Positions 371 to 60,798 of a stretch of 64,000 bases of DNA are shown here, piece by piece. Origin of the DNA: Armatimonadota bacterium (lineage in GTDB: Bacteria > Armatimonadota > DTGP01 > JAKQQT01); contig DASXVS010000041.1 of the NCBI GenBank assembly GCA_036504095.1, forward strand, positions 1-64,000, in the 5' to 3' direction. The notes beneath the pieces are model-generated. The model ran no database searches and was not told where the DNA came from. It saw nothing but the letters and a program-made list of their open reading frames with translations. Numbering within the stretch: the first letter of the stretch is position 1; each line of letters opens with the position of its first letter. Both the position numbers and the translations under genes were made by a program.

Positions 371-791
371 TTAAGTTCACTCTGATCGTCATTATCAATA
401 TCGATAAACAGGATATGAATGATACAAAACCATCCTGGCGATTTTTGCACAACCCCCGCCAGTGTAAATTCAGTCTATCGGTTTATCGTAATCTTCTTGC
501 AAAACACTGCCCGGGCTTCTTGTATCGCCTTCCAATTGCACCGCACTGGCGCTCTCCCTTCACTTCGGATGACTCCTTTCCTGGAGTTCATCCTATCATC
601 TCACGTGGGCCAGTTTTCCGGGGGAGGCCCATGGCGACGATCGAAAGCATGCTGGCGCCATGGTTTGAGGGGGGACGCTGGGCAGCAGGCGAACCGCAAG
701 AAGCCTGGAATCCCGCGTAGCCGTTGACAGGCAGGGGGTTGGAGGCTGGATTCCGAAATCCAACCTCCAATCTCCAACTTCCCACCTCCAG
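371..791. other. 421-bp intergenic stretch, no gene seen
   Basis: It lies between a plus-strand gene end and a minus-strand gene end. Short open frames here have no family resemblance, no convincing ribosome-binding site and a composition unlike the neighbouring genes. The GC content drops in roughly 371-520, unlike the rest of the window. The last 60 bases hold a heptamer repeat listed separately. Confidence 0.6.
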
Positions 792-794
792 CTA
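735..794 (-). repeat. Stop-anchored heptamer repeat hairpin (TTGGAGG type)
   Basis: Read on the minus strand, directly after the TAG stop of the deacetylase gene, the sequence divides into phased 7-mers: CTGGAGG, TGGGAAG, TTGGAGA, TTGGAGG, TTGGATT, TCGGAAT, CCAGCCT, CCAACCC. The last units are the inverse of the earlier ones, so TTGGAGGTTGGATT pairs with AATCCAGCCTCCAA (one G-U pair) around a TCGG loop. It may act as the 3' hairpin of the deacetylase transcript. There is no T-tract. Confidence 0.75.
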
Positions 795-13937: not shown

Positions 13938-13967
13938 GTGTTGCGGCAAGGTTGCATCGCGAGGTAG

Positions 13968-14057
13968 TGTCGGCGGGGACGCCGACAACGATTGCCGATG
14001 TATGTCGGCGGGGACGCCGACAATGATTGCCGACGGTTGTCGGCGGGGACGCCGACA
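13968..14057. repeat. 35-bp tandem repeat, three hairpins
   Basis: TGTCGGCGGGGACGCCGACA occurs at 13968, 14003 and 14038, an exact 35-bp period. Each copy is an 8-bp stem (TGTCGGCG/CGCCGACA) with a GGGA loop, and the spacers (ACGATTGCCGATGTA, ATGATTGCCGACGGT) are near-identical. It sits in the 161-bp gap between the aldolase and the lyase genes. Confidence 0.85.
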
Positions 14058-16432: not shown

Positions 16433-16783
16433 CCTCGGGTGGCGCCGGCCTCCGTGCCGGTGAACCGGCGGGACGCCGGTCGTACCGTGAATCGCGGGGG
16501 CCGGGGCCACGTTGGTGTCGGGCGCGGAGGCCCGACCTACCGGGAATCGCGGGGGCGGAGGGCGGGGCCATGTCGGTGTCGGGCACGGAGGCCCGACCTA
16601 CCGGGAATCGCGGAGGCGGAGGGCGGCGCCACGTTGGTGTCGGGCACGGAGGCCCGACCTACTTTTCGTCCACAGCCGGGTCGGCCGTGCTACATATTGC
16701 GCCCGGTTTCCCGTTACAATGTGGGAAAGCGGGCGCCGCCTCTTTGCGCCCCCCAACGTTACGTGAAACGAGACCAAACCCCT
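16433..16783. repeat. 351-bp intergenic region with three 61-bp tandem repeats
   Basis: From 16487 to 16663 a unit of 61 bp is present three times, starting at about 16487 (shortened to 56 bp), 16543 and 16604. Each unit starts near GAATCGCGG and ends CGGAGGCCCGACCTAC; it contains the hairpin GTCGGGC/GCCCGAC. Before it, at 16442-16485, are two more short hairpins (GCCGGCCTCCGTGCCGG and CCGGCGGGACGCCGG). Nothing else is seen before the rhamnosidase start. An open frame passes through the repeats but its residues there are low-complexity Gly/Arg and not credible. Confidence 0.82.
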
Positions 16784-33018: not shown

Positions 33019-34014
33019 ATGCATTTTGAATCTCGCAGGATACTTGCTGTTGTCGCCGGGCTTTCGTGCCTCGGCCTGTCGGCGTGCCAGCCCAAACCGA
33101 AGGCGGCGCCTTCCGGGGCAAAGCGCTACAAGGTGGGGTTCGCCAACCTGCAGGAGGATATGCCGTTCGCGGTGCGCGTCCGCGAGGGCATCCAGAAGGC
33201 GGCGAAGGACGCGGGCAACATCGACCTCATCTGCGCGGACAACCGCCTGGACGGCAAGGTGGCGATGGACAACGCCAACAACTTCATCACCCAGCAGGTG
33301 GACGGCGTGATCGAGTTCCAGACCGACGCGGAGTTCGGCAAGGAGATCATGCGCAAATTCAACGAGGCGCACATCCCGGTGATCGCGATCGACATCCCGA
33401 TGCCCGGCGCCACGTTCTTCGGTGTGAACAATTACCCGGCGGGACACATGGCCGGCGCGAACCTCGGCAACTGGATTAAGGCGAACTGGGGCGGCAAGGT
33501 GGACAACCTGGTGATGCTGGAATTGCCGCAGTCGGGCAAAGTGCCGGCGGAGCGCCTGCGCGGCGAGCGCGAGGGCCTGGAGAGCGTGGTGGGCAAGTTT
33601 GCGGAGCCGAACGTAGTGCACCTGGACAGCAAGAATACGCTGGAGACAGCTCGGGCCCTGGTTGCGGATACGCTGACCCGTCTGCCGAACGCGCACCACA
33701 TCGCCGTGGTCTGCATCAATGACGACACGGCGCTTGGCGCGATCAATGCGGCAGAAGCGGCCGGACGGAAGAACGATATCGCCGTTTGCGCGGTGGACGC
33801 GAGCGATCGTGGCCGCGAGGAGATACGCAAACCGGGCAGCCCCCACAAGGGCAGCACGGCGTCGTTCCCGGAGAAGTACGGTGAGCACATCATCCCCGTT
33901 CTTCTGCAGGGCATGCAGGGCAAGAAGATGCCGGAGTCTTTCTACACCACCCACATCGTCATGACCAAGGACAACGTGGACAAGTACTACCCGAATGACA
34001 AGAAACAGGGCTGA
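33019..34014 (+). CDS. Sugar ABC transporter substrate-binding lipoprotein (CUT2 type)
   Basis: The ATG has GGGGAG upstream. The 331-residue product has a lipoprotein signal ending LSAC (lipid at about Cys23) and a periplasmic-binding fold of the ribose/galactose type: VGFANLQEDMPFAVRVREGIQ, NNFITQQVDGVIEFQTD, CINDDTALGAINAAEAAG. It is the first gene of an importer whose ATPase and permease follow at 34087 and 35592. A heptamer hairpin fills the spacer after its stop, in a position suited to making binding protein in excess over the membrane parts. Sugar specificity is unknown; rhamnose is plausible from context. Confidence 0.88.
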   Translation: MHFESRRILAVVAGLSCLGLSACQPKPKAAPSGAKRYKVGFANLQEDMPFAVRVREGIQKAAKDAGNIDLICADNRLDGKVAMDNANNFITQQVDGVIEFQTDAEFGKEIMRKFNEAHIPVIAIDIPMPGATFFGVNNYPAGHMAGANLGNWIKANWGGKVDNLVMLELPQSGKVPAERLRGEREGLESVVGKFAEPNVVHLDSKNTLETARALVADTLTRLPNAHHIAVVCINDDTALGAINAAEAAGRKNDIAVCAVDASDRGREEIRKPGSPHKGSTASFPEKYGEHIIPVLLQGMQGKKMPESFYTTHIVMTKDNVDKYYPNDKKQG

Positions 34015-34082
34015 GATCCGAGGGCTGAGGGCCGAGACACTGCTTCCCGAACCTCAGCCCGCACCCCTCAGCCCTCAGCCCT
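34008..34082 (+). repeat. Heptamer repeat hairpin filling the binding-protein/ATPase spacer
   Basis: From inside the last codons and stop of the upstream gene: GGGCTGA, GATCCGA, GGGCTGA, GGGCCGA, GACACTG, all in 7-base phase. After a short loop come the inverse units CTCAGCC, CGCACCC, CTCAGCC, CTCAGCC (34053-34080). A perfect 12-bp pairing is 34021-34032 with 34071-34082. It ends four bases before the ATG of the ATPase gene, which has no Shine-Dalgarno sequence. Confidence 0.85.
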
Positions 34083-34086
34083 GACC

Positions 34087-35595
34087 ATGCCTAGTCTCTT
34101 GGAAATGAACGGCATCCGCAAGTCTTTTGCGGGCGTGCCGGTTTTGCACGGCGTCGATCTCACGCTTTACGCGGGGGAGACGCTGGCGCTCCTTGGCGGC
34201 AACGGCGCCGGGAAGTCAACGCTCATCAAGATTCTGAACGGTGACTACACGAAGGACGCCGGGACGATTACGATTGACGGCGTCGAGTGCGCCTTCCGGT
34301 CGCCCGCGGACGCGGAAAGCGCCGGTGTTCAGGTCATCTACCAGGAACTCAACTACGCGCCGGACCTGAGCGTGGCGGAGAACGTGCTGCTGGGCAACCT
34401 GCCGCGCCGGCGCGGCCCGCTCGGCAGGTTCGTCGTCGATTGGCAGGCCGCCTATCGCCGCGCGGGAAGCCTTCTGGAGGCTCTGGAAGCCGACGTCGAT
34501 CCCCATGCGCTGATGCGACAACTAACGGTGGGGAAGCAGCAGATCGTGGAGATCGCGCGGGCTCTGTCCAAGGAGGCCCGCATCCTGGTGATGGACGAAC
34601 CGACGGCGGCGCTGACGCCTCGGGAGGTGAGGCTGCTTTTCGCGACCATTGAGCGCCTCCGCGCCCAGGGCGTGGGCGTGATCTTCATATCGCACCGCCT
34701 CGATGAGGTGGAGGAGATCGCGCAGCGGGTGCTGGTTTTGCGCGACGGCCAAGTCGCTGGGGAAGCGCACATGGACTCGGTGAGCCGCAACGATATCGTC
34801 ACGATGATGATCGGCCGCGATCTGGAGACGATCTATCCCGCCCGCCGCGCGACCACCGGTGAGACAGTGCTGGAGTTGCGGCAGTTCGCGCGCAGGGGAT
34901 CGTTCTCCGGCGTTGACCTCACTGTACGGGCGGGGGAGATCGTCGGCCTGTTCGGCCTCCTGGGGGCCGGGCACGAGGAGCTGATCCGCTCCGTGTTCGG
35001 GGCGGAGACGGCGGATTCCGGCAGCCTGTTCGTGGCGGGGAGGTGCGTGGACGTGGCTTCGCCGCGCGATGCCCGCCGCGCGGGAATCGGCCTCGTGCCT
35101 CAGGACCGCAAGACGGACGGACTCTTCCAGGTGATGTCGGTGACGGACAACATCACGGTTTCCAACTGGGAAGCGGTGGCGCCCGGCGGAGTGTTTCGCG
35201 CGGCGCGGCAGACGGATTGCGCCCGCAGATGGATCGACAGGCTCGGCATCGTGCTGGCCACGGGGCCGCGGCAGGAGGCGCGGACGCTGAGCGGCGGCAA
35301 TCAGCAGAAGATGGTTCTCGGGCGCTGGCTGGAGGCCGGAACGCGCGTGCTGCTGCTGGCCGAGCCGACGCGCGGCGTGGACGTCGGCGCGCGCGCCGAT
35401 ATCTACCGCGTCCTCGAGGATTTCCGCGAACAGGGGCTGGCGATTGTGCTCGTTTCGTCCGATATTGAAGAGGTGCTCGCGCTGAGCGACCGAGTACTCG
35501 TCTTCCGGAAGGGCCGCGTTGCGCGCGAGTTCGCCCGCGAGGAGGCGACCCAGGCCACCGTGATGTCCGAAGCAGCCGGAGAGCGTCCGCAATGA
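34087..35595 (+). CDS. Sugar ABC transporter ATPase with two nucleotide-binding domains (RbsA/MglA type)
   Basis: The 502-residue product is the usual length for CUT2 ATPases. First domain: Walker A GGNGAGKST, signature LTVGKQQ, Walker B ILVMDEPTAAL. Second domain: degenerate Walker A GLLGAGHEE (no Lys-Ser/Thr, as is normal for this class), signature LSGGNQQ, Walker B VLLLAEPTRGVDVG. It powers import of the sugar caught by the preceding lipoprotein. No ribosome-binding site precedes the ATG; the bases there are the right arm of the heptamer hairpin. Its stop overlaps the permease start by 4 bases. Confidence 0.93.
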   Translation: MPSLLEMNGIRKSFAGVPVLHGVDLTLYAGETLALLGGNGAGKSTLIKILNGDYTKDAGTITIDGVECAFRSPADAESAGVQVIYQELNYAPDLSVAENVLLGNLPRRRGPLGRFVVDWQAAYRRAGSLLEALEADVDPHALMRQLTVGKQQIVEIARALSKEARILVMDEPTAALTPREVRLLFATIERLRAQGVGVIFISHRLDEVEEIAQRVLVLRDGQVAGEAHMDSVSRNDIVTMMIGRDLETIYPARRATTGETVLELRQFARRGSFSGVDLTVRAGEIVGLFGLLGAGHEELIRSVFGAETADSGSLFVAGRCVDVASPRDARRAGIGLVPQDRKTDGLFQVMSVTDNITVSNWEAVAPGGVFRAARQTDCARRWIDRLGIVLATGPRQEARTLSGGNQQKMVLGRWLEAGTRVLLLAEPTRGVDVGARADIYRVLEDFREQGLAIVLVSSDIEEVLALSDRVLVFRKGRVAREFAREEATQATVMSEAAGERPQ

Positions 35596-36563
35596 CCGCG
35601 AAACCCCAGAGTATATCTTTCAACAAACGAAGCCGCCTATCGTCGATGGACGCCATCGGCCTGGTGGGTATTTACCTGATCCTCCTGGTCTTTCTGGCGA
35701 TCCGGGCGCCGTTTTTCCTCACCGCGTACAATTTCCTGAACATCCTCGTCGCGGTTTCGACGATAGGCATCATCAGCGTGGCGATGACGATGGTGATCGT
35801 TTCAGCGGGAATCGACCTGAGTGTCGGTTCTGTGGTCGCGCTGTCCGGCGTGGCCATCGCCCATGTCGGGCACGGCCGCTCCGTCTGGCTGGGGGTTTTC
35901 GCGGCGCTTTGCGTTGGCCTGATTGTCGGCGCCGTCAACGGCCTGTCGGTGACGAGGCTCCGCATCAACCCGCTGATCGCAACCCTCGGCACGATGTCGA
36001 TCGCGCGGGGACTGGCGTTCGTTTTTTCGGGCGGCCTGACGCAGAGCATCACCGATGACGCCTTCGGCTGGCTGGGGCGCGGGTTCGTTTACGGAGTGCC
36101 GTTTCACGTTCTGGTGATGGCGCTGATGTTCATCATCGCCGCGTGGGTGATGCGGCACACCGTATTTGGCCGCAGCGTCTACGCCATCGGCGGGAACGAG
36201 CAGGCGAGCCGCCTGGCCGGCCTGCCGGTGCAGAAGGTGCAGATGGCGGTGTTCGTGCTGTGCGGCCTCTGCGCGGCGCTGGGTGGTGTGTTCCAGGCTT
36301 CGCAACTGGGCGCGGCGGCGCCGGCGGCGGCGAACGGGATCGAGATGAGCGTCATCGCGGCCGTCATCCTCGGGGGTACGAGCCTCAGCGGAGGAAAAGG
36401 CACCATCTGGGGAACCCTGCTGGGCGTTCTGATCATGGGCACCCTCAACAACGGCCTCAATCTGATGCAGTTGTCGAGCTACTGGCAGGACGTGGCGCGT
36501 GGCTCCGTGCTGCTGCTGGCGGTCGGACTGGATCAGTTGCGGTTGAGGCTGGCAGAACGATAG
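35592..36563 (+). CDS. Sugar ABC transporter permease (RbsC type)
   Basis: The 323-residue inner-membrane protein has 8-10 hydrophobic helices and the family segments SAGIDLSVGSVVALSGV, VTRLRINPLIATLGTMSIARG, AIGGNEQASRLAGLPV and GGTSLSGGKGTIWGTLLGV. Only one permease gene is present, so the transporter would use a homodimer, as ribose importers do. The start overlaps the ATPase stop (ATGA). The gene ends with TAG followed at once by the 36571 heptamer array. Confidence 0.92.
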   Translation: MTAKPQSISFNKRSRLSSMDAIGLVGIYLILLVFLAIRAPFFLTAYNFLNILVAVSTIGIISVAMTMVIVSAGIDLSVGSVVALSGVAIAHVGHGRSVWLGVFAALCVGLIVGAVNGLSVTRLRINPLIATLGTMSIARGLAFVFSGGLTQSITDDAFGWLGRGFVYGVPFHVLVMALMFIIAAWVMRHTVFGRSVYAIGGNEQASRLAGLPVQKVQMAVFVLCGLCAALGGVFQASQLGAAAPAAANGIEMSVIAAVILGGTSLSGGKGTIWGTLLGVLIMGTLNNGLNLMQLSSYWQDVARGSVLLLAVGLDQLRLRLAER

Positions 36564-36661
36564 ACGAAACGATGAGCGATGAGCGATGAACGATGAGCGA
36601 TGAGCGATGAACGATGAGCGATGAACGATGAGCGATGAATGATGAACGATGAGCGATGATT
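36564..36661 (+). repeat. GATGARC heptamer array, 13 units
   Basis: The prefix ACGAAAC (36564-36570) directly after the permease stop is followed by 13 perfectly phased 7-mers: GATGAGC, GATGAGC, GATGAAC, GATGAGC, GATGAGC, GATGAAC, GATGAGC, GATGAAC, GATGAGC, GATGAAT, GATGAAC, GATGAGC, GATGATT. It does not carry the inverse arm. The 344-bp gap also holds the element at 36709-36772; the rest shows no gene. Confidence 0.92.
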
Positions 36662-38379: not shown

Positions 38380-40560
38380 ATGAACGTCAGTGTTACGCGC
38401 CTGTCGGGCGCCATCCTTGTCGCGCTTATGGCCTGGCCGAGCGGCGCGCTCGGTGAAGGCCTCCCGGCCTCCTCCTCCGGTGTAGCGGTGGACCTGGAAG
38501 CCGCCACGGGACGTTACACCGTTACCTCGAACAAGCCTGACTTCACTTTCAGCGGGAAGCTGTCTGCCGCGCCCTCCAACGTCACCACGAAGTCCGGGCG
38601 CGATTCCGCGGGCAGGTACGACGAGATATCGTTTCAGTGGATGCAGGACGGCCGCATCGACGGCTCGATCAGGCGATATCGGGACAGGCCCATCGCGCTC
38701 TTCACGTGGCGGACCGGTGAGGCAAACCAGGCCTCGCCCATCGCCTTCCCGTCATTCACGGAGATCCCGCAGGGGCTGAACGTCCTCTCGTACAGGGACG
38801 TGAATTTCTCACCGTTCGCTTTCGCTCCGGAGAAGGGCAGCACGCCGTGGGTGCTCTTCGATGGGAACGGGAACACGGCGGTTGTGTCTCCCGCGGCGAA
38901 CTTCATGACCGCCAGCATGACCGGCGACGCGAAATCCGAAATCACCTGCGCGATCGACGCTAGAGTGGCCAACCTGCCGAAGGGCTTCACGCATAAGACA
39001 ATGCTTGCCTTTGGCCAAGGGATCAACGCGACGTGGGAAGCGTGGGGCAAGGGGCTGACCGACTTCGTGGGGGTGAAGCGGCCCGCCTATGATGCAGATT
39101 TCTACCTGAAGCACCTGGGGTACTGGACCGACAACGGCGCTGCCTACTACTACAACTACGACAAAGCCCTCGGGTATGAAGGCACGCTTCTGGCGGTCCG
39201 CGACGAGATGCAGCGGTTGGGCATCCCCATCCGGTACGTTCAGTTGGACAGCTGGTGGTACCAGAAGACGACGGTCAACTACAAGGGCGAGGATGAGAAG
39301 AAGCCGAAGGTGGCCAGCCTTCCCGAGGGTACGTGGAACGCCTATGGCGGCCTGACCAAATACGAAGCGCACCCGTTCGTCTTCCCGGATGGCCTGGACG
39401 GGTTCCACAGCAAAGTGGGCATGCCGTTGGCGACGCACAACCGATGGATCGACGTGAAGAGCCCGTACCGTGAAAAATACGATATCCCCGGCCTGCAGTC
39501 CACCGATCCGAAGTACTGGGAGGAGATCATCGGCTACATCGCGCGCTCCGGCGTGAAGATGTACGAGCAGGACTGGCTCAACTACACCTGGGACTACTCG
39601 CCGCGCTTTCATACCGAGCCATACACGGCGGCCGCGTTCCTCACCGCAATGGCGAAGGCCTGCGCAAATCACGGCCTGACGATGCAGTACTGCATGGCGC
39701 AGCCGCGGTTCTTCCTGCAGGGCGCCACGTATCCCAACCTCACCAACATCCGCGTCAGCGATGACCGCTTCGACCGCGGGAAGTGGGAGCGCTTCCTGTA
39801 CACGTCGCGCTTCGCGTCCGCGCTGGGCGAGTGGCCGTGGGTGGACACGTATATGAGCAAGGAGCGCGACAACATGCTCCTCGCCACACTGAGCGCCGGC
39901 CTGGTGGGCTTCGGCGATTTCATGGGCCAGGAGAGCGTTGAGAACGCGCTGATGGCCGCCCGCCCCGACGGCGTGCTGGTGAAGCCGGACGCATCCATCG
40001 TGCCGGTCGATGCGAGCGTCCTCTCGGACGCGCGAAAAGAGCACAAACCGATGGTGGCATCCACGTATACGCGGCACGGCGATCGCAAGACGGTCTACGT
40101 GTTCGCGTTCCGGCGCAAGGGTGATACCGAGAATACGGAGTTCCTGCCCTCCGACGTGGGAATGAACACCGCAGGGTACCGGTGGTATCCCTTCGACGGA
40201 GGAGTATCTCCCGTCGAGGCAGACACTACCATCCGGGGGAAGCTGGCGACAGACGATTGTACGTTCCTTGTGCTCGCGCCGACGGGTGTATCGGGAATCG
40301 CCTTCCTCGGCGACTTGGGCAAGTTCGTGGGCACGGGGAAGCAGCGCATCGAATCGATATCGGAAGTACCAGGCAGCCTGACGGCGACCGTGCTGTTCGC
40401 GGAGGGCGAGAAGAGCGTTACGCTGCACGGCTATTCACCCATCGGGCTGCAGAGTTCGGCCGGCCCGGTGAGCTGGGATGCCAAGGGCGGGCATTTCACC
40501 CTCGATGTCGCGTCCAACGGGAAGCCGCGTGTCACGCTGACGATATCGGAGAAACGATGA
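38380..40560 (+). CDS. Exported TIM-barrel glycoside hydrolase-like protein, family not assigned
   Basis: The ATG follows AAGG. The 726-residue product has a Sec signal (about 1-25), an N-terminal beta-sandwich (about 30-225), a barrel (about 230-560) and a C-terminal sandwich (about 590-726). In the barrel, LGYWTDNGAAYYYNYDKAL, IPIRYVQLDSWWYQK, GVKMYEQDWLNYTWDYS, LTMQYCMAQPRFFL and NIRVSDDRF look like the strand ends of clan GH-D/GH31/GH36 enzymes, with Asp residues in EQDW and VSDD as nucleophile and acid/base candidates. The fold guess is from motifs only. It sits between two MFS carriers, so the products of its action are probably taken up. Its TGA is the start of a heptamer array. Confidence 0.6.
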   Translation: MNVSVTRLSGAILVALMAWPSGALGEGLPASSSGVAVDLEAATGRYTVTSNKPDFTFSGKLSAAPSNVTTKSGRDSAGRYDEISFQWMQDGRIDGSIRRYRDRPIALFTWRTGEANQASPIAFPSFTEIPQGLNVLSYRDVNFSPFAFAPEKGSTPWVLFDGNGNTAVVSPAANFMTASMTGDAKSEITCAIDARVANLPKGFTHKTMLAFGQGINATWEAWGKGLTDFVGVKRPAYDADFYLKHLGYWTDNGAAYYYNYDKALGYEGTLLAVRDEMQRLGIPIRYVQLDSWWYQKTTVNYKGEDEKKPKVASLPEGTWNAYGGLTKYEAHPFVFPDGLDGFHSKVGMPLATHNRWIDVKSPYREKYDIPGLQSTDPKYWEEIIGYIARSGVKMYEQDWLNYTWDYSPRFHTEPYTAAAFLTAMAKACANHGLTMQYCMAQPRFFLQGATYPNLTNIRVSDDRFDRGKWERFLYTSRFASALGEWPWVDTYMSKERDNMLLATLSAGLVGFGDFMGQESVENALMAARPDGVLVKPDASIVPVDASVLSDARKEHKPMVASTYTRHGDRKTVYVFAFRRKGDTENTEFLPSDVGMNTAGYRWYPFDGGVSPVEADTTIRGKLATDDCTFLVLAPTGVSGIAFLGDLGKFVGTGKQRIESISEVPGSLTATVLFAEGEKSVTLHGYSPIGLQSSAGPVSWDAKGGHFTLDVASNGKPRVTLTISEKR

Positions 40561-40632
40561 ACGATGAGCGATGAACGATGAGCGATGCACGATGAACGAT
40601 GAACGATGAGCGATGAACGATGAGCGTTGAGC
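40556..40632 (+). repeat. GATGARC heptamer array, 11 units
   Basis: Starts inside the last codon of the glycosidase gene and uses its TGA: GATGAAC, GATGAGC, GATGAAC, GATGAGC, GATGCAC, GATGAAC, GATGAAC, GATGAGC, GATGAAC, GATGAGC, GTTGAGC. It is preceded by GAAAC, as the other two arrays of this sequence are. No inverse arm. Confidence 0.92.
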
Positions 40633-41931: not shown

Positions 41932-42013
41932 ACGAAACGATGAACGAGGAGCGATGAACGATGAATTTCGGAATCCGGATTCATCGTTCATCGCTCCTAC
42001 TTCATCGTTCTGT
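41932..42013. repeat. Two-armed GATGARC heptamer hairpin between convergent genes
   Basis: After the TAA of the transporter: ACGAAAC, GATGAAC, GAGGAGC, GATGAAC, GATGAAT, a loop of TTCGGAATCCGG, then ATTCATC, GTTCATC, GCTCCTA, CTTCATC, GTTCTG. The arms pair almost completely over about 31 bp. Read from the other gene's TGA the order is ACAGAAC, GATGAAG, TAGGAGC, GATGAAC, GATGAAT, so the element looks the same from both stop codons. It may act as a bidirectional terminator. Confidence 0.92.
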
Positions 42014-45786: not shown

Positions 45787-45883
45787 TGGGAAGGACATGA
45801 GGAAACGGGGAAACGGGGAAATGGGGAAATGGATCGGAGTCCGTTCATTTCCTCATTGCCTCATTTCCCCATTTCCTGGTCTG
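45787..45883 (-). repeat. Octamer repeat hairpin filling the dehydrogenase/apbE spacer
   Basis: On the minus strand, six bases after the TAA of the dehydrogenase: AGGAAATG, GGGAAATG, AGGCAATG, AGGAAATG, a 15-base loop, then ATTTCCCC, ATTTCCCC, GTTTCCCC, GTTTCCTC. In-register pairing gives a stem of about 32 bp (45799-45877). It closes 14 bases before the apbE start, which has no ribosome-binding site, so folding brings the stop and start codons together. Confidence 0.88.
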
Positions 45884-47284
45884 TTAGGCGATGATCTGGC
45901 GTTTGATGGGGTCGAAGTTCATCGTCTTGTGCTCGAGTTCCGCCATTTCGGCGAGGGAGACGATGGTCTGAACGCGAACCGCAAGGCCGATGTTACCGTT
46001 CGGCGTCTTGCCGGTGCGGATGCAATCCAGCCAGTTCTTTTCGTGGACCTTAATGTCCTCGCCGGGGCCGACGACCGGGAAGTCCTGCGGATCGATCTCC
46101 TCGGCGAACGGGCGCTCCGGGCTGAGGGCGACTTTGCCGCCGCCGAAGCGGAGGGTCGCTTTGTGGCCGCGGATCAGATCTTCCAGGCCCTGCTCGTTGA
46201 CGGTGGACAGGAAGACGTACATCGTAACGCCGGACGGGAACTCAACCAGCGTGTGGATGGTGTCCGCCACTTCGCGGTCGGTGGAGATCTTCATCGTCCC
46301 AAGGGCCGTTACGCGGGAGGGGAATTCGGGCTTGTCGCCGAAGACCGCGATCATCAGCGGGTGGAGCTTGTGGGGCATCAGGTCGCCGAGCAGGCCGGCG
46401 GAGTAATCGCGATACTTGCGGTAGCGGAAGAAGCGGGCCTTGGAGTCGTCGTTCCAGGGGCGGTCCGGCGCGCTGCCGAGCCACATCTTCCAGTCCAGGT
46501 TGTCCGGGCCGGCGCCGGCGTCGATGTTGTAGTTCCATTCGCCGCCCTGGCTGTTGCGGGCATAGGAGCCCTGGCAGGAGACGAGTTCACCGATCTTGCC
46601 GGAACTCACCACTTCGTTGGCGACGTGCCACTTGGTGTCCGAAGTTCCCTGGGAGCCTACCTGGAAGACCTTGCCGGTCTTTTCCTGTGCGGCCAGAATG
46701 GCAAAGCCTTCGTCCATGTAGCGGGTCATCGGCTTTTCGCAGTATACGTGTTTGCCGGCTTCCATGGCGTCGATGGCGATCTGGGCGTGCCAGTGTTCCG
46801 GGGTGGCGATGACGACCGCGTCCACGTCCTTATTGTCGAGGAGTGCGCGATAGTCCTTCGCGGTCTGAACCTGCGCGGAGGCGTCATATTTGAGGATGGC
46901 GGCCTTGGCGCCATCCAGGCGGGGCACGTAGACTTCCGAGACGCCGATGGAGCGGGTATTGTTGACCTCGCGTTCGCCGTTCAGGATGTGGAGGTGCGCG
47001 CCGCCCTGTCCGCCCACTCCAATGTGAGCGATGGCGATGCGGTCGTTTGCCCCGATGACGCGCCCGGATGCCATGCGCACGCGCGGCTTCAGCCCGGCGG
47101 ATTTGAGAACTTTGGGTTTTGCCTTCGCCACCGCATCGCCCGCGGCGGCTGCGGCGAAACCGGGGGTTCCCATAGCGATGATCGTGCCGCCGACGCCCAA
47201 TGCGGCGGTCTTCAGGAAGTCTCGGCGGGTTGTGCCCGCGTTTTCGGTTTCAGCCGGCTTGAATGAGTCTTTTTCGTGTGACAT
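45884..47284 (-). CDS. Tat-exported Gfo/Idh/MocA dehydrogenase 2 of the operon
   Basis: The start is the ATG of MSHEKDSFKPAETENAG, with GGAG 12 bases upstream; the earlier ATG at 47296 is too close to it. The 466-residue product has a classic twin-arginine signal (TTRRDFLKTAALG, Arg20-Arg21), a Rossmann motif (IAHIGVGGQGGAH), PEHWHAQIAIDAMEAGK and the catalytic VYCEKPMT. The C-terminal half has WNYNIDAGAGPDNLDWKMW and RYRKYRDYSAGLLGDLMPH, common in exported planctomycete and armatimonad members. It should oxidise or reduce a sugar outside the cytoplasm. The octamer hairpin follows its stop. Confidence 0.88.
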   Translation of the reverse strand: MSHEKDSFKPAETENAGTTRRDFLKTAALGVGGTIIAMGTPGFAAAAAGDAVAKAKPKVLKSAGLKPRVRMASGRVIGANDRIAIAHIGVGGQGGAHLHILNGEREVNNTRSIGVSEVYVPRLDGAKAAILKYDASAQVQTAKDYRALLDNKDVDAVVIATPEHWHAQIAIDAMEAGKHVYCEKPMTRYMDEGFAILAAQEKTGKVFQVGSQGTSDTKWHVANEVVSSGKIGELVSCQGSYARNSQGGEWNYNIDAGAGPDNLDWKMWLGSAPDRPWNDDSKARFFRYRKYRDYSAGLLGDLMPHKLHPLMIAVFGDKPEFPSRVTALGTMKISTDREVADTIHTLVEFPSGVTMYVFLSTVNEQGLEDLIRGHKATLRFGGGKVALSPERPFAEEIDPQDFPVVGPGEDIKVHEKNWLDCIRTGKTPNGNIGLAVRVQTIVSLAEMAELEHKTMNFDPIKRQIIA

Positions 47285-47330
47285 GGGTTTATCCATCTCC
47301 AGTAAGTGATGATGTGCGGGCATTGGCGCC

Positions 47331-53200: not shown

Positions 53201-53564
53201 CGACGCCGGCGGCGCCGCGCGGTTCGGCGCGGAGGTTAGCCAGCCCCTCGTCGCCGTACCTGCCGCGGGGGCGGACGCGAACGGGTCACTCGTGCGGATC
53301 GAGCCGAATTCGGTGCTGGTGACGTCGCTACGGCCCGCCGCGGACGGGAAGGCCTTGCTGGTCCGGCTGTATGGCGCTTCGGGCAGGAAAGAGAGTGTGC
53401 GGCTGAGGTGGTCGAGCCCGCGCAAGGTCTCGTTCTGCGATCCCTCGGGGCGGCCGCTGAAGCCTGTCAAAGGCGAGGTCGTCGTGCCCGCGTGGGGAAT
53501 CGTGACGCTGAGAGCGGAGCCTGTCACGCAGCGTCAGCTCCAGAAGAAGCGTCAGCTCCAGTAG
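50244..53564 (+). CDS. Exported GH38-like alpha-mannosidase family protein
   Basis: The start is taken as TTG at 50244 with GGGGAG eight bases upstream, giving MKTLTGRRVPSVLCALTV as a Sec signal. The 1106-residue product has an N-terminal sandwich domain (about 30-290; YVVGRSNPRTDWPYVLPGP, related to galactose-binding folds) that is not standard for GH38. The GH38 core follows: LPHSHVDIGYT (zinc His and Asp), FVWSAEVLWAVD, HSAMITDVPGYAWGL (nucleophile Asp), and a late beta-sandwich. GH38 enzymes hydrolyse alpha-mannosides with zinc. It is divergent from the barrel-protein gene, and convergent with rhamnulokinase. Confidence 0.82.
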   Translation: MKTLTGRRVPSVLCALTVASICAAASGEPVWTIGRENHDAGEFALAPAAYYTYRDDAYYVVGRSNPRTDWPYVLPGPADSWAGSRKHECAIAFGLKPPPTAECRLRLSLVDAQDTKPPKLAIRVNGTGFEAATERGAGDSSIQGDASAGRPQAIDVAFPAGLLHAGINEITISTVSGSWLVWDALSLDAPGAEVSDAELTRIAGVQSPPVLVKRLGRLNQIAEVTIARAGGAQDVAVSVGSHTVKASLHDGRQTVEVPIGEVAGRVNLPVSVTSANGAPVATGSLGVEPVRKWEVYLLPHSHVDIGYTALQSDVLKKQFSNLETAIDLARRTRDYPEGARFVWSAEVLWAVDAYLKQAPPAKRRALVDAVQRGWIELDALYGNELTALCRPEELFHLVEPAGRLARETGAPIHSAMITDVPGYAWGLIPVLAQSGVRYFSFGPNSGDRIGPTLNAWGDRPFRWETPAGDASVLCWMAGTGYSWFHGQTLAQKGDAELLDYLKSLEGKAYPYDMVQVRYTTNGDNGAPDPTLSDTVRDWNARYAYPKLVIATTTRMFRDFERRYGAKIPRVRGDFTPYWEDGAASTAAETAMNRAAAERLTQAEALQAMLRPGVPLTGAFEDAWRNVVLYDEHTWGAYNSISEPDSAFAKGQWAVKQKFALDADRQSRALLVSATGVSVHAAPNAVDVYNTSSWDRTDLVTIAPALSRAGDRVIGPGGAAAPSQRLSDGSLAFLARAVPAFGTQRYRILAGHPIGGKAAVTATALRVSGLAIAIDPATGAIVRVTTKWGNLARKLNAYLYVAGRDPGSPAPNGRPTITVKERGPLVVALQIRSSAPGANSLVREIRLVEGLDRVDITNTLDKQAIRTKEGVHFSFAFDVPNPTVRLDTAWAVVRPETDQMSGACKNWFTVQRWADVSNASSGITMATVDAPLLEIGGITAERPWMAHVAPSSTLVSYVMNNYWHTNYKADQSGPTEFRYALRPHGKYDAGGAARFGAEVSQPLVAVPAAGADANGSLVRIEPNSVLVTSLRPAADGKALLVRLYGASGRKESVRLRWSSPRKVSFCDPSGRPLKPVKGEVVVPAWGIVTLRAEPVTQRQLQKKRQLQ

Positions 53565-53614
53565 AACGGGTGTCCCGCCTGTTAAGGGTTAGGGAAACGG
53601 GCGGGACGCCCGTT

Positions 53615-53620
<6 letters not shown>
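53559..53620. terminator. 25-bp convergent stem-loop spanning both stop codons
   Basis: 53559-53583 pairs with 53596-53620 with only two G-U pairs; the arms contain the TAG of the mannosidase and the TAG of the rhamnulokinase. The two arms read CAGTAGAACGGG and CCCGTTCTACTG at their ends. It is expected to act on both converging transcripts. No T-tract. Confidence 0.65.
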
Positions 53621-59160: not shown

Positions 59161-59190
59161 TTGACGCGGCTCGCGCGCATGCGATACATT
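59161..59190 (+). promoter_or_regulatory. Sigma-70-like promoter of the CDF transporter gene
   Basis: TTGACG (59161-59166), 18 bp, TACATT (59185-59190). The start would fall near 59195-59198, at the first helix of the riboswitch. Moderate match to consensus; position relative to the aptamer is the main support. Confidence 0.6.
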
Positions 59191-59193
59191 AGG

Positions 59194-59283
59194 GGTGAAG
59201 AGCAGGCAGCCCGGTGAATCGGGAGTAGCCGGGCCCGCGCGTGGCGGGCAGCAGGCATTGATGAGCCCTGCGGGACTGAAACC
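59194..59283 (+). promoter_or_regulatory. NiCo (czcD-type) metal riboswitch
   Basis: The order and bases match the NiCo aptamer: GAGCAGGCA (59200-59208), a hairpin CCCG/CGGG, GTAGCCGGG (the usual GCAGCCGGG), a second hairpin CCCGC/GCGGG, CAGCAGG, and CCTGCGGGACTG, the counterpart of the family's CUGUGGGACAG. GCAGG (59251-59255) pairs with CCTGC (59267-59271) for the last helix. P1 is short (GGT with ACC). NiCo RNAs bind Co(II) or Ni(II) and switch on metal exporters; the CDF gene follows. A terminator competes with the last helix. Confidence 0.85.
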
Positions 59284-59376: not shown

Positions 59377-60798
59377 ATGAGTAAAAGCGAAACCGCCATC
59401 CGCCGGGCCGGCGAGGAGAAGCGTTGGGTGGCGCTCACCTCGGTGGGCGCGGCCGTCCTGCTGACCTCCACAAAGCTGGTCATCGGTATCTCCACGGGGA
59501 GCCTCGGAATCCTGTCCGAGGCGGCGCACTCCGGCCTGGATTTTGTGGCGGCGGCGATCACGTATTTCGCCGTCCGGGTGTCGGACCGTCCGGCCGACGC
59601 GGACCATACCTATGGCCACGGCAAGGTTGAAGCGCTTTCCGCGCTCGTGGAAACGCTCCTGCTGCTGATCACCTGCGCGTGGATCATCCACGAAGCGGTG
59701 GCGCGCCTACTGTTCCGGGAGGTGCACGTCGAGGCGACGCCCTGGGCCTTCGGGGTCGTGCTGATGTCGATCGTCATCGACGTGTCGCGGTCGCGAGCCC
59801 TGATGCGCGTTGCGAAGAAGCACAACAGCCAGGCTCTGGAGGCGGACGCGCTCCATTTCAGTACGGACGTCTGGAGCTCCACCGTGGTGCTCGTCGGCCT
59901 CGCGCTGGTGAAATACGGCGAGTTGACGCATGCGGGCGCCGGGTTCCAGAGAGCGGACGCCCTGGCGGCCCTCGGAGTGGCCGCCATCGTGATCCAGGTG
60001 TGCTTCAATCTGGGGAGGCGGACGCTGGACGTGCTGCTGGACAAGGCGCCGGCCGGCCTGGCCCTCGAGATCGAGGAGGCTGTGAGGGAGGTTGACGGCG
60101 TGCGCGGGGTCCACAGGCTGCGCCTGAGGCGCGTTGGCCCGGACATCTTTGTGGACCTGGTCGTTTCGGTGGAATCGCATACGCAATTGCAGCGCAGCCA
60201 TGCGATCGCGGAATCCGTTGAAGGCGAGATATGCAGGCTGTCTCCCGGAGCGGACGTCGTCGTTCACGTGGAGCCAGAGCCCCGCGCGGGCGAGTCCGAC
60301 ATTGAGCGCATCCGCGACGTGGCGGCGGGTCTGGGGCAGACGGTCCATAACGTCGTCCTTTGGGAGCACAGCGGGAAAACCCACGTTGACCTGCATGCTG
60401 AACTGCCGGATGGGATGGAGCTTGGAGACGCTCACGACGTCGCGGATGCGATGGAGCAGGCCATCCACGAGGCACTGCCGGATGTATCCTCGGTTACCAT
60501 CCATATCGAGCCGCGCGAGGATCGTCAGGGGGTCACGGAGGACATTACGGCTCATTCCAAGAGCGTCATATCCCGCGTGGAGGCTGCCGCGGCCGCGGTT
60601 GGCGGCGTGCTGGAATGCCACGATGTGAGTGTCCTCAAGACGGCTCAGGGGCATCGGGTGGCGATGCACTGCGTGTTTGACGCGTCGCTGTCCGTGTCGG
60701 AAGTGCACCGGATTTCGTCACAGCTTGAGGAGAGAGTACAACGGACTGTTCCGAACGTTATCCGGGTAACCACACACCCGGAGCCGCTCGGAAAGTGA
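59377..60798 (+). CDS. Cation diffusion facilitator (CDF) metal exporter with three tandem C-terminal domains
   Basis: The 473-residue product has six membrane helices (about 20-215), the metal-site pairs HSGLD (helix 2) and HFSTD (helix 5), and RADALAALGVA. CDF proteins usually end with one cytosolic dimerisation domain of about 80 residues and total near 300; here three follow in tandem (about 225-305, 310-390, 400-470), each ending in a segment such as VVVHVEPEP, SVTIHIEPRE and RVTTHPEP. The extra His and acidic residues suggest added metal sensing. It expels divalent metal by proton exchange. The NiCo riboswitch in its leader points to Co or Ni rather than zinc. Confidence 0.92.
   Translation: MSKSETAIRRAGEEKRWVALTSVGAAVLLTSTKLVIGISTGSLGILSEAAHSGLDFVAAAITYFAVRVSDRPADADHTYGHGKVEALSALVETLLLLITCAWIIHEAVARLLFREVHVEATPWAFGVVLMSIVIDVSRSRALMRVAKKHNSQALEADALHFSTDVWSSTVVLVGLALVKYGELTHAGAGFQRADALAALGVAAIVIQVCFNLGRRTLDVLLDKAPAGLALEIEEAVREVDGVRGVHRLRLRRVGPDIFVDLVVSVESHTQLQRSHAIAESVEGEICRLSPGADVVVHVEPEPRAGESDIERIRDVAAGLGQTVHNVVLWEHSGKTHVDLHAELPDGMELGDAHDVADAMEQAIHEALPDVSSVTIHIEPREDRQGVTEDITAHSKSVISRVEAAAAAVGGVLECHDVSVLKTAQGHRVAMHCVFDASLSVSEVHRISSQLEERVQRTVPNVIRVTTHPEPLGK

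Follow-up and report, generated by a model that had tools for sequence, protein, structure and literature searches.

Intergenic 7- and 8-bp tandem repeats of many unit families, many of them in stop-proximal hairpins, in an Armatimonadota genome

Analysis of the thirteen-unit GATGARC array of an Armatimonadota genome placed it, in a reading to which we give about an even chance of being correct, within a genome-wide class of intergenic 7- and 8-bp arrays that resembles the STRRs of cyanobacteria, is built from many unit families, comprises both stop-proximal inverted hairpins and direct arrays, and would arise by slippage combined with hairpin-templated copying. The period, the intergenic location, the hairpin arms, the proximity to stop codons, the depletion from divergent gaps, the turnover between genera and the co-occurrence of units are observed properties of these elements, and direct arrays such as GATGARC x13 are possibly half-elements.

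Within the window, the whole 64,000-nucleotide stretch of DNA analysed, six of the six gaps singled out by a sequence-only reading carried the phased 7-bp units (8-bp at one) that it had described, touching a stop codon or lying no more than 7 nt from one. A TTGGAGR heptamer hairpin with the loop TTCGGAA (735-794, minus strand; fold z −2.7) starts at the TAG stop of the minus-strand gene 792-2189; in a GGGCTGA/GGGCCGA heptamer hairpin (34008-34082, plus strand; z −5.2) the TGA of the first unit is itself the stop of gene 33019-34014, encoding a periplasmic sugar-binding protein; and a GGAAATGR octamer hairpin with a 35-bp stem (45787-45883, minus strand; z −6.3) lies 6 nt past the stop (45884) of the minus-strand gene 45884-47323 (Gfo/Idh/MocA), with an ApbE gene on its other side. 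The remaining three sites, built from GATGARC, share the prefix GAAAC, an observation of the same reading that was borne out. The direct array at 36564-36661 (plus strand) lacks an inverted arm, and its 13 GATGA-type units start 7 nt past the TAG (36561-36563) of gene 35592-36563, which encodes an ABC permease (BPD_transp_2). Gene 38380-40560 uses as its stop codon the first TGA of the ten-unit direct array at 40556-40632 (plus strand), and at 41932-42013, which has no assigned strand, inverted GATGARC and GYTCATC arrays form a 38-bp stem (z −10.5) that occupies the whole gap between two convergent stop codons. The hairpin form attributed to these repeats did not extend to the reading's title site at 36564, nor to 40556, both of which were unstructured and less folded than shuffled sequence (z +2.6 and +1.25), whereas the other four were hairpins (z −2.7 to −10.5). 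The loop core GGATTCCGAAAT, shared by the sites at 735 and 41932, was rejected as a general feature, having only 2 exact intergenic sites.

Genome-wide, these periods stood almost alone. Among the 1.30 of 4.68 Mb of this genome (G000) that were scanned, comprising 949 genes and 204 kb of intergenic DNA as delimited by a simple codon-model gene caller and including several contigs picked for holding GATGARC, 65 intergenic tandem arrays of period 7 and 10 of period 8 reached a score of at least 14, and every other non-harmonic period had one at most. A first subset of 456 kb gave the same picture at that threshold, with 24 arrays of period 7, seven of period 8 and none of periods 4 to 6 or 9 to 13; shuffled intergenic DNA gave none. 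Because the excess at 7 and 8 bp was present in both the 456 kb and the 1.30 Mb and absent from shuffles, the pattern of the six sites is far beyond chance. About twenty unit families were represented, the commonest of which (TTCAGGA, CGATGAG, GGATGCT, AGGGCTG, CCTACTG, GGAACCC and GGAAACGG) each occurred at 5-13 gaps. An inverted partner lay within 200 bp of 35 of 94 arrays (control 4), and arrays were under-represented in divergent gaps (Fisher p=0.05).

The sequence-only reading had held that confinement of the runs to one contig would point to an assembly artefact, and they were found on further contigs and in further genomes. Two of 32 contig ends finish within arrays. Long, mixed heptamer arrays crowd together at 1-20000 of contig C46 and 86000-91248 of contig C25; both contigs end in a GGGCTGA/GGGCTGG-type array and may adjoin. 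An artefact is unlikely: the breaks of C25 and C46 both fall inside one type of array, and arrays of these types are present in other genomes as well.

Long intergenic hairpins, defined by a stem of at least 16 bp, numbered 172 compared with 22-23 in shuffled gaps, and 70 of them had arms with a 7- or 8-bp period (1-3 in shuffles). In co-directional gaps, 30 of 54 periodic hairpins began within 10 nt of the upstream stop, compared with 13.4 when placed at random in the same gaps (maximum 22 in 1000 placements), and the median distance to the stop was 8.5 nt for periodic and 34 nt for non-periodic hairpins. Three periodic hairpins take up the entire space between two convergent stops, and divergent gaps were poor in periodic hairpins (3/98, Fisher p=0.004). 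Bare arrays showed no such anchoring: with all arrays taken together, 13 of 71 lay within 10 nt of a stop where 8.2 were expected, which was not significant, so that the signal resides in the hairpins. The anchoring was replicated outside the genome of discovery, in two sets of IMG/VR contigs selected by repeat unit, where 42 of 82 periodic hairpins began within 10 nt of a stop (expected 25.0; maximum of 1000, 36). Hence the claim that the repeats always lie at or near a stop codon stood for the six sites and, as an enrichment, for the hairpin class across the genome but not for arrays as a whole, and a genome-wide lack of stop-codon enrichment, named beforehand as evidence against that claim, was not what the hairpin form displayed either here or in the contigs.

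The two arms of a hairpin matched each other unit by unit. When the order of units in one arm was permuted, none of 100 permutations outscored the real order in 33 of 41 hairpins, a test that is somewhat biased in that the hairpins were preselected for pairing, although permuted scores (mean 15.8) still exceeded the entry threshold of 11. Sliding the arms by one unit lowered Watson-Crick pairing from 80% to 69%, and for octamer elements from different contigs the agreement between arms exceeded expectation only weakly (50 vs 43 ± 4). Selection for sense-RNA pairing would be expected to leave more G-U than A-C mismatches on the sense strand. In periodic stems of this genome the counts were 53 G-U and 60 A-C, whereas non-periodic hairpins, which served as a positive control, gave 65 and 35 (p=0.0035). 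Metagenomic contigs gave 52 vs 42 for heptamer and 40 vs 68 for octamer stems; their non-periodic control was without bias (51 vs 53), so that the positive control holds only in this genome. The lack of wobble bias in periodic stems favours a DNA-level process, an argument to which we attach moderate weight.

Comparison with relatives revealed change in where the elements lie. The closest named relatives of one protein of the window come from an Opitutia and an Armatimonadetes MAG. In 299 kb of G001, which belongs to the same family but to another genus and for which some contigs were picked for holding the octamer, we found 13 heptamer and 8 octamer arrays, all intergenic, and at neighbouring periods nothing but single genic matches. 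Units common to both genomes were GATGARC, AYCCTGA and CACRAAGN. The Gfo-ApbE junction, a 99-bp gap with the octamer hairpin (45787-45883) here, corresponds to an orthologous 40-bp gap without one in G001, whereas on the 3' side of the next gene of the same operon G001 has a nested heptamer element and this genome a 33-bp gap. Element positions thus turn over between genera: each of the two has an element in a gap whose orthologue in the other is empty. The CACRAAGN octamer was found in 6 of 151 genomes of the phylum, spread over five families, and the loci from G030 and G046, chosen for the octamer, contained both 7- and 8-bp arrays; random samples of other genomes yielded no 7/8 arrays. Plasmid records gave no match to GATGARC and one 23-nt match to the octamer, in Burkholderia.

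Carriers of one unit family also tend to carry many others, a patchy genome-level trait. Three sets of IMG/VR contigs were compared: one selected by the octamer (97 loci, 0.84 Mb), one selected by AYCCTGA (0.58 Mb), and one selected by arbitrary 14- or 15-mers (133 loci, 1.15 Mb). Contigs selected by the octamer (CACRAAG) contained 70 heptamer and 18 octamer arrays of other units, and those selected by AYCCTGA contained 46 heptamer and 13 octamer arrays, compared with none and three, respectively, in the arbitrarily selected set. The density of 7/8 arrays of other units was 104.6 per Mb in octamer-selected contigs vs 2.6 in random ones, about 40-fold, with p about 3e-29, a value that is optimistic since neighbours on one contig are not fully independent. 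These contigs may be misclassified bacterial DNA, which hides their taxonomy and leaves the argument unaffected.

Comparison with published repeats showed that the elements extend a poorly explained kind of bacterial repeat known from Geobacter, cyanobacteria and Xanthomonas. The likeness to cyanobacterial STRRs drawn by the sequence-only reading was apt, and the tandem 7/8-bp period, the intergenic location, the scarcity between divergent genes and the recurrence of the same unit at many loci place the elements with STRR-type intergenic repeats, yet it was also too narrow, comparable elements having been described in Geobacter (PMC2700814), Xanthomonas and Nostoc (PMC4692102), and Beggiatoaceae and Bacteroidetes (PMC4679880). 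For the STRRs, PMC4692102 cites three heptanucleotides in Calothrix. Like the genome studied here, cyanobacteria hold several heptamer families per genome, but the units differ. To our knowledge, a predominant stop-anchored hairpin form that includes octamers has not been reported for cyanobacterial STRRs. The genome of Geobacter metallireducens has tandem octamers (GTTGCTYN and TCTCCGTS) and heptamers (MTYCTGA) in opposite-strand pairs at variable distance, interpreted as binding sites of global regulators (classes 1-3) whose binding is only proposed (PMC2700814). Those sites share with ours the tandem 7/8-mers, the mostly opposite-strand pairing and the dispersal within one genome, and they were not identified in a congener; the units of classes 2 and 3 resemble CACGGAGR and AYCCTGA here when compared by consensus only. 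The Geobacter sites fall into three classes, whereas the elements here comprise many families and include stop-anchored hairpins with short loops and arms that match in register.

Rehm and colleagues described quadruplex-forming heptamers of the GGGNATC type in Xanthomonas and Nostoc, enriched on the coding strand 0-50 bp downstream of stops and avoiding divergent gaps, and cited a polymerase-slippage hypothesis for a general excess of heptamers (PMC4692102). These arrays, which lack a gene-function bias, are intergenic, stop-proximal and rare between divergent genes as here, but their units are G-rich, with four units preferred, whereas GATGARC and most families here have no G-tracts; the GATGARC, CACRAAGN and GGATTCA units contain no GGG, and unit numbers vary widely. 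Direct TAACTGA repeats with a patchy distribution were reported by MacGregor in Beggiatoaceae, Cyanobacteria and Bacteroidetes (PMC4679880). They resemble ours as intergenic heptamer arrays of patchy phylogeny that are sometimes mixed with other heptamers and are gained and lost between relatives, but in Beggiatoa they lie just upstream of start codons, are nearly all direct and use one unit, whereas hairpins here favour stops, and no TAACTGA family was among those found in this genome. REP/RAYT palindromes are also dispersed intergenic hairpins but are not tandem 7/8-mers, and the REP flanking a RAYT gene in this genome is a separate sequence. A search for the literal unit strings in the literature returned no occurrence, and we found no description of stop-anchored hairpin dominance, in-register arms, many families per genome or strong co-occurrence of unrelated units. 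Heptamer repeats of bacteria have been reported piecemeal over decades with no agreed cause, and here they appear in one arrangement of 7 or 8 bp, with many units, inverted and stop-proximal. Given the 40-fold excess with which unrelated units share contigs, genomes can be surveyed for the trait and its presence compared with their gene content; the question "why seven?" thereby becomes testable, and a set of 3'-flank hairpins from across a genome is at hand for assays.

We propose that arrays would grow and shrink by replication slippage of 7-8 nt in the tolerant space behind genes, that an inverted copy would allow a DNA hairpin in which one arm templates the other and keeps variant units in register, and that units would disperse to new sites by some further route. 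Once present, such hairpins may take on a secondary role in protecting or terminating transcripts, but nothing in these data points to selection acting on the sense RNA. Slippage alone does not account for the recurrence of the same units at many loci and in distant genomes, or for hairpins lying nearer to stops than their gap demands. Mismatch repair is generally regarded as inefficient on loops of 7-8 nt. Its loss was rejected as a cause, mutS1 being present in this genome and in positive and negative genomes alike, and Rho was likewise rejected as a discriminator, as it does not separate the two groups. It is also conceivable, although we think it rather unlikely, that hairpins of 7-8-nt repeats are written behind genes by a dedicated generator with a scattered distribution among bacterial phyla, carriers having many unrelated families and non-carriers almost none.

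Among the alternatives, selection of the stop-proximal hairpins as RNA elements (transcript 3' ends, intra-operon stabilisers or U-less bidirectional terminators), with repeats as their mode of growth, is a serious possibility that we nevertheless do not favour. The tight position 4-10 nt past stops here and the stop proximity in independent contigs, the very stable folds, the several convergent gaps filled from stop to stop and the scarcity in divergent gaps are all consistent with it. However, the T-tract is absent, with at least 5 T in the 8 nt after the stem at 2 of 80 stem ends (mean 2.29 vs background 1.57); a terminator consensus scan stayed at chance level. Sense-strand G-U pairs do not exceed A-C, the direct arrays at 36564 and 40556 fold less than shuffles, and orthologous gaps of the sister genus lack elements, all of which argue against this alternative. 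Rfam covariance models at hairpin sites gave only microRNA-type matches far under gathering scores. Tandem sites for a DNA-bending or global regulator protein, suggested for Geobacter metallireducens (IHF/HU; PMC2700814), would match the architecture of tandem 7/8-mers on opposite strands at variable spacing, and by consensus only the class 2 unit TCTCCGTS complements SACGGAGA (compare CACGGAGG here) and the class 3 unit MTYCTGA resembles AYCCTGA; this analogy seems improbable for about twenty families in one genome, which would require many proteins, and the position behind stops and the depletion from divergent gaps are unlike promoter regulation.

Movement of the palindromes by a REP-associated (RAYT/Y1_Tnp) or MITE-type transposase would suit the 7 Y1_Tnp genes of this genome and the dispersed families whose positions differ between genera, but we consider it slightly more doubtful still: the Y1_Tnp gene at C80:206599 is flanked on both sides by a different, non-periodic REP (TCGGCTGAAGCCGAC), the other copies inspected have no heptamer hairpins in the REP position, and G001 has a single copy. 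A role as fail-safe stops has an appealing arithmetic, as 7 equals 1 and 8 equals 2 modulo 3, so that a unit bearing TGA or TAG places a stop in every frame behind a gene. Three-frame stops were found in 11 of 67 5' arms vs 1.8 in shuffles, stop triplets in these arms numbered 97 vs 76 ± 6 when shuffled, and all three frames are served by the GATGARC arrays (5/5/4 stops per frame at 36564-36661 and 3/3/4 at 40556-40632). We regard this explanation as very improbable, since many stop-anchored families (AGCATTC, GAGTTCC and CACAAAGR) have no stop triplet in the sense arm, periods 4, 5, 10 and 11 would be equally suitable yet are absent, and the available part of PMC6764699 reports no evidence for selected extra 3' stops in eubacteria. 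Writing of the repeats by a telomerase-like reverse transcriptase hardly deserves credence: RVT_1 genes occur in this genome and in G046 (three each), but the element-bearing G001 has no RVT_1 match at 92% completeness, and RVT_1 is also present in G005 and G014, whose sampled DNA showed no arrays.

Other repeats and elements were observed alongside the 7/8-bp class. The REP-like TCGGCTGAAGCCGAC elements lie at 206439-206513 and 207014-207088 of contig C80 in G000 and flank the RAYT-type Y1_Tnp gene 206599-206934. A non-periodic dispersed palindrome of the GTCATnCTGAGCGnAGCGAAGnATCTC type was found in both genera (G000 C71 69536, C43 29414 and C43 161309; L060; L274). In the window, a non-periodic hairpin (AGTAGAACGGGTGTCCCGCCTGTT...) at 53560-53619 occupies all of the space between two convergent stops; with a further copy on contig C24 (L279 383-443), it constitutes a second dispersed hairpin family. 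GC-rich REP-like units in the window form minisatellites at 16494-16662 (61 bp x 2.8) and 13960-14057 (35 bp x 2.8). Finally, a match to the NiCo riboswitch at 59186-59280 (plus strand; 37.7 bits vs a gathering score of 37) precedes the gene 59377-60798, which encodes a cation-efflux (CDF) protein.
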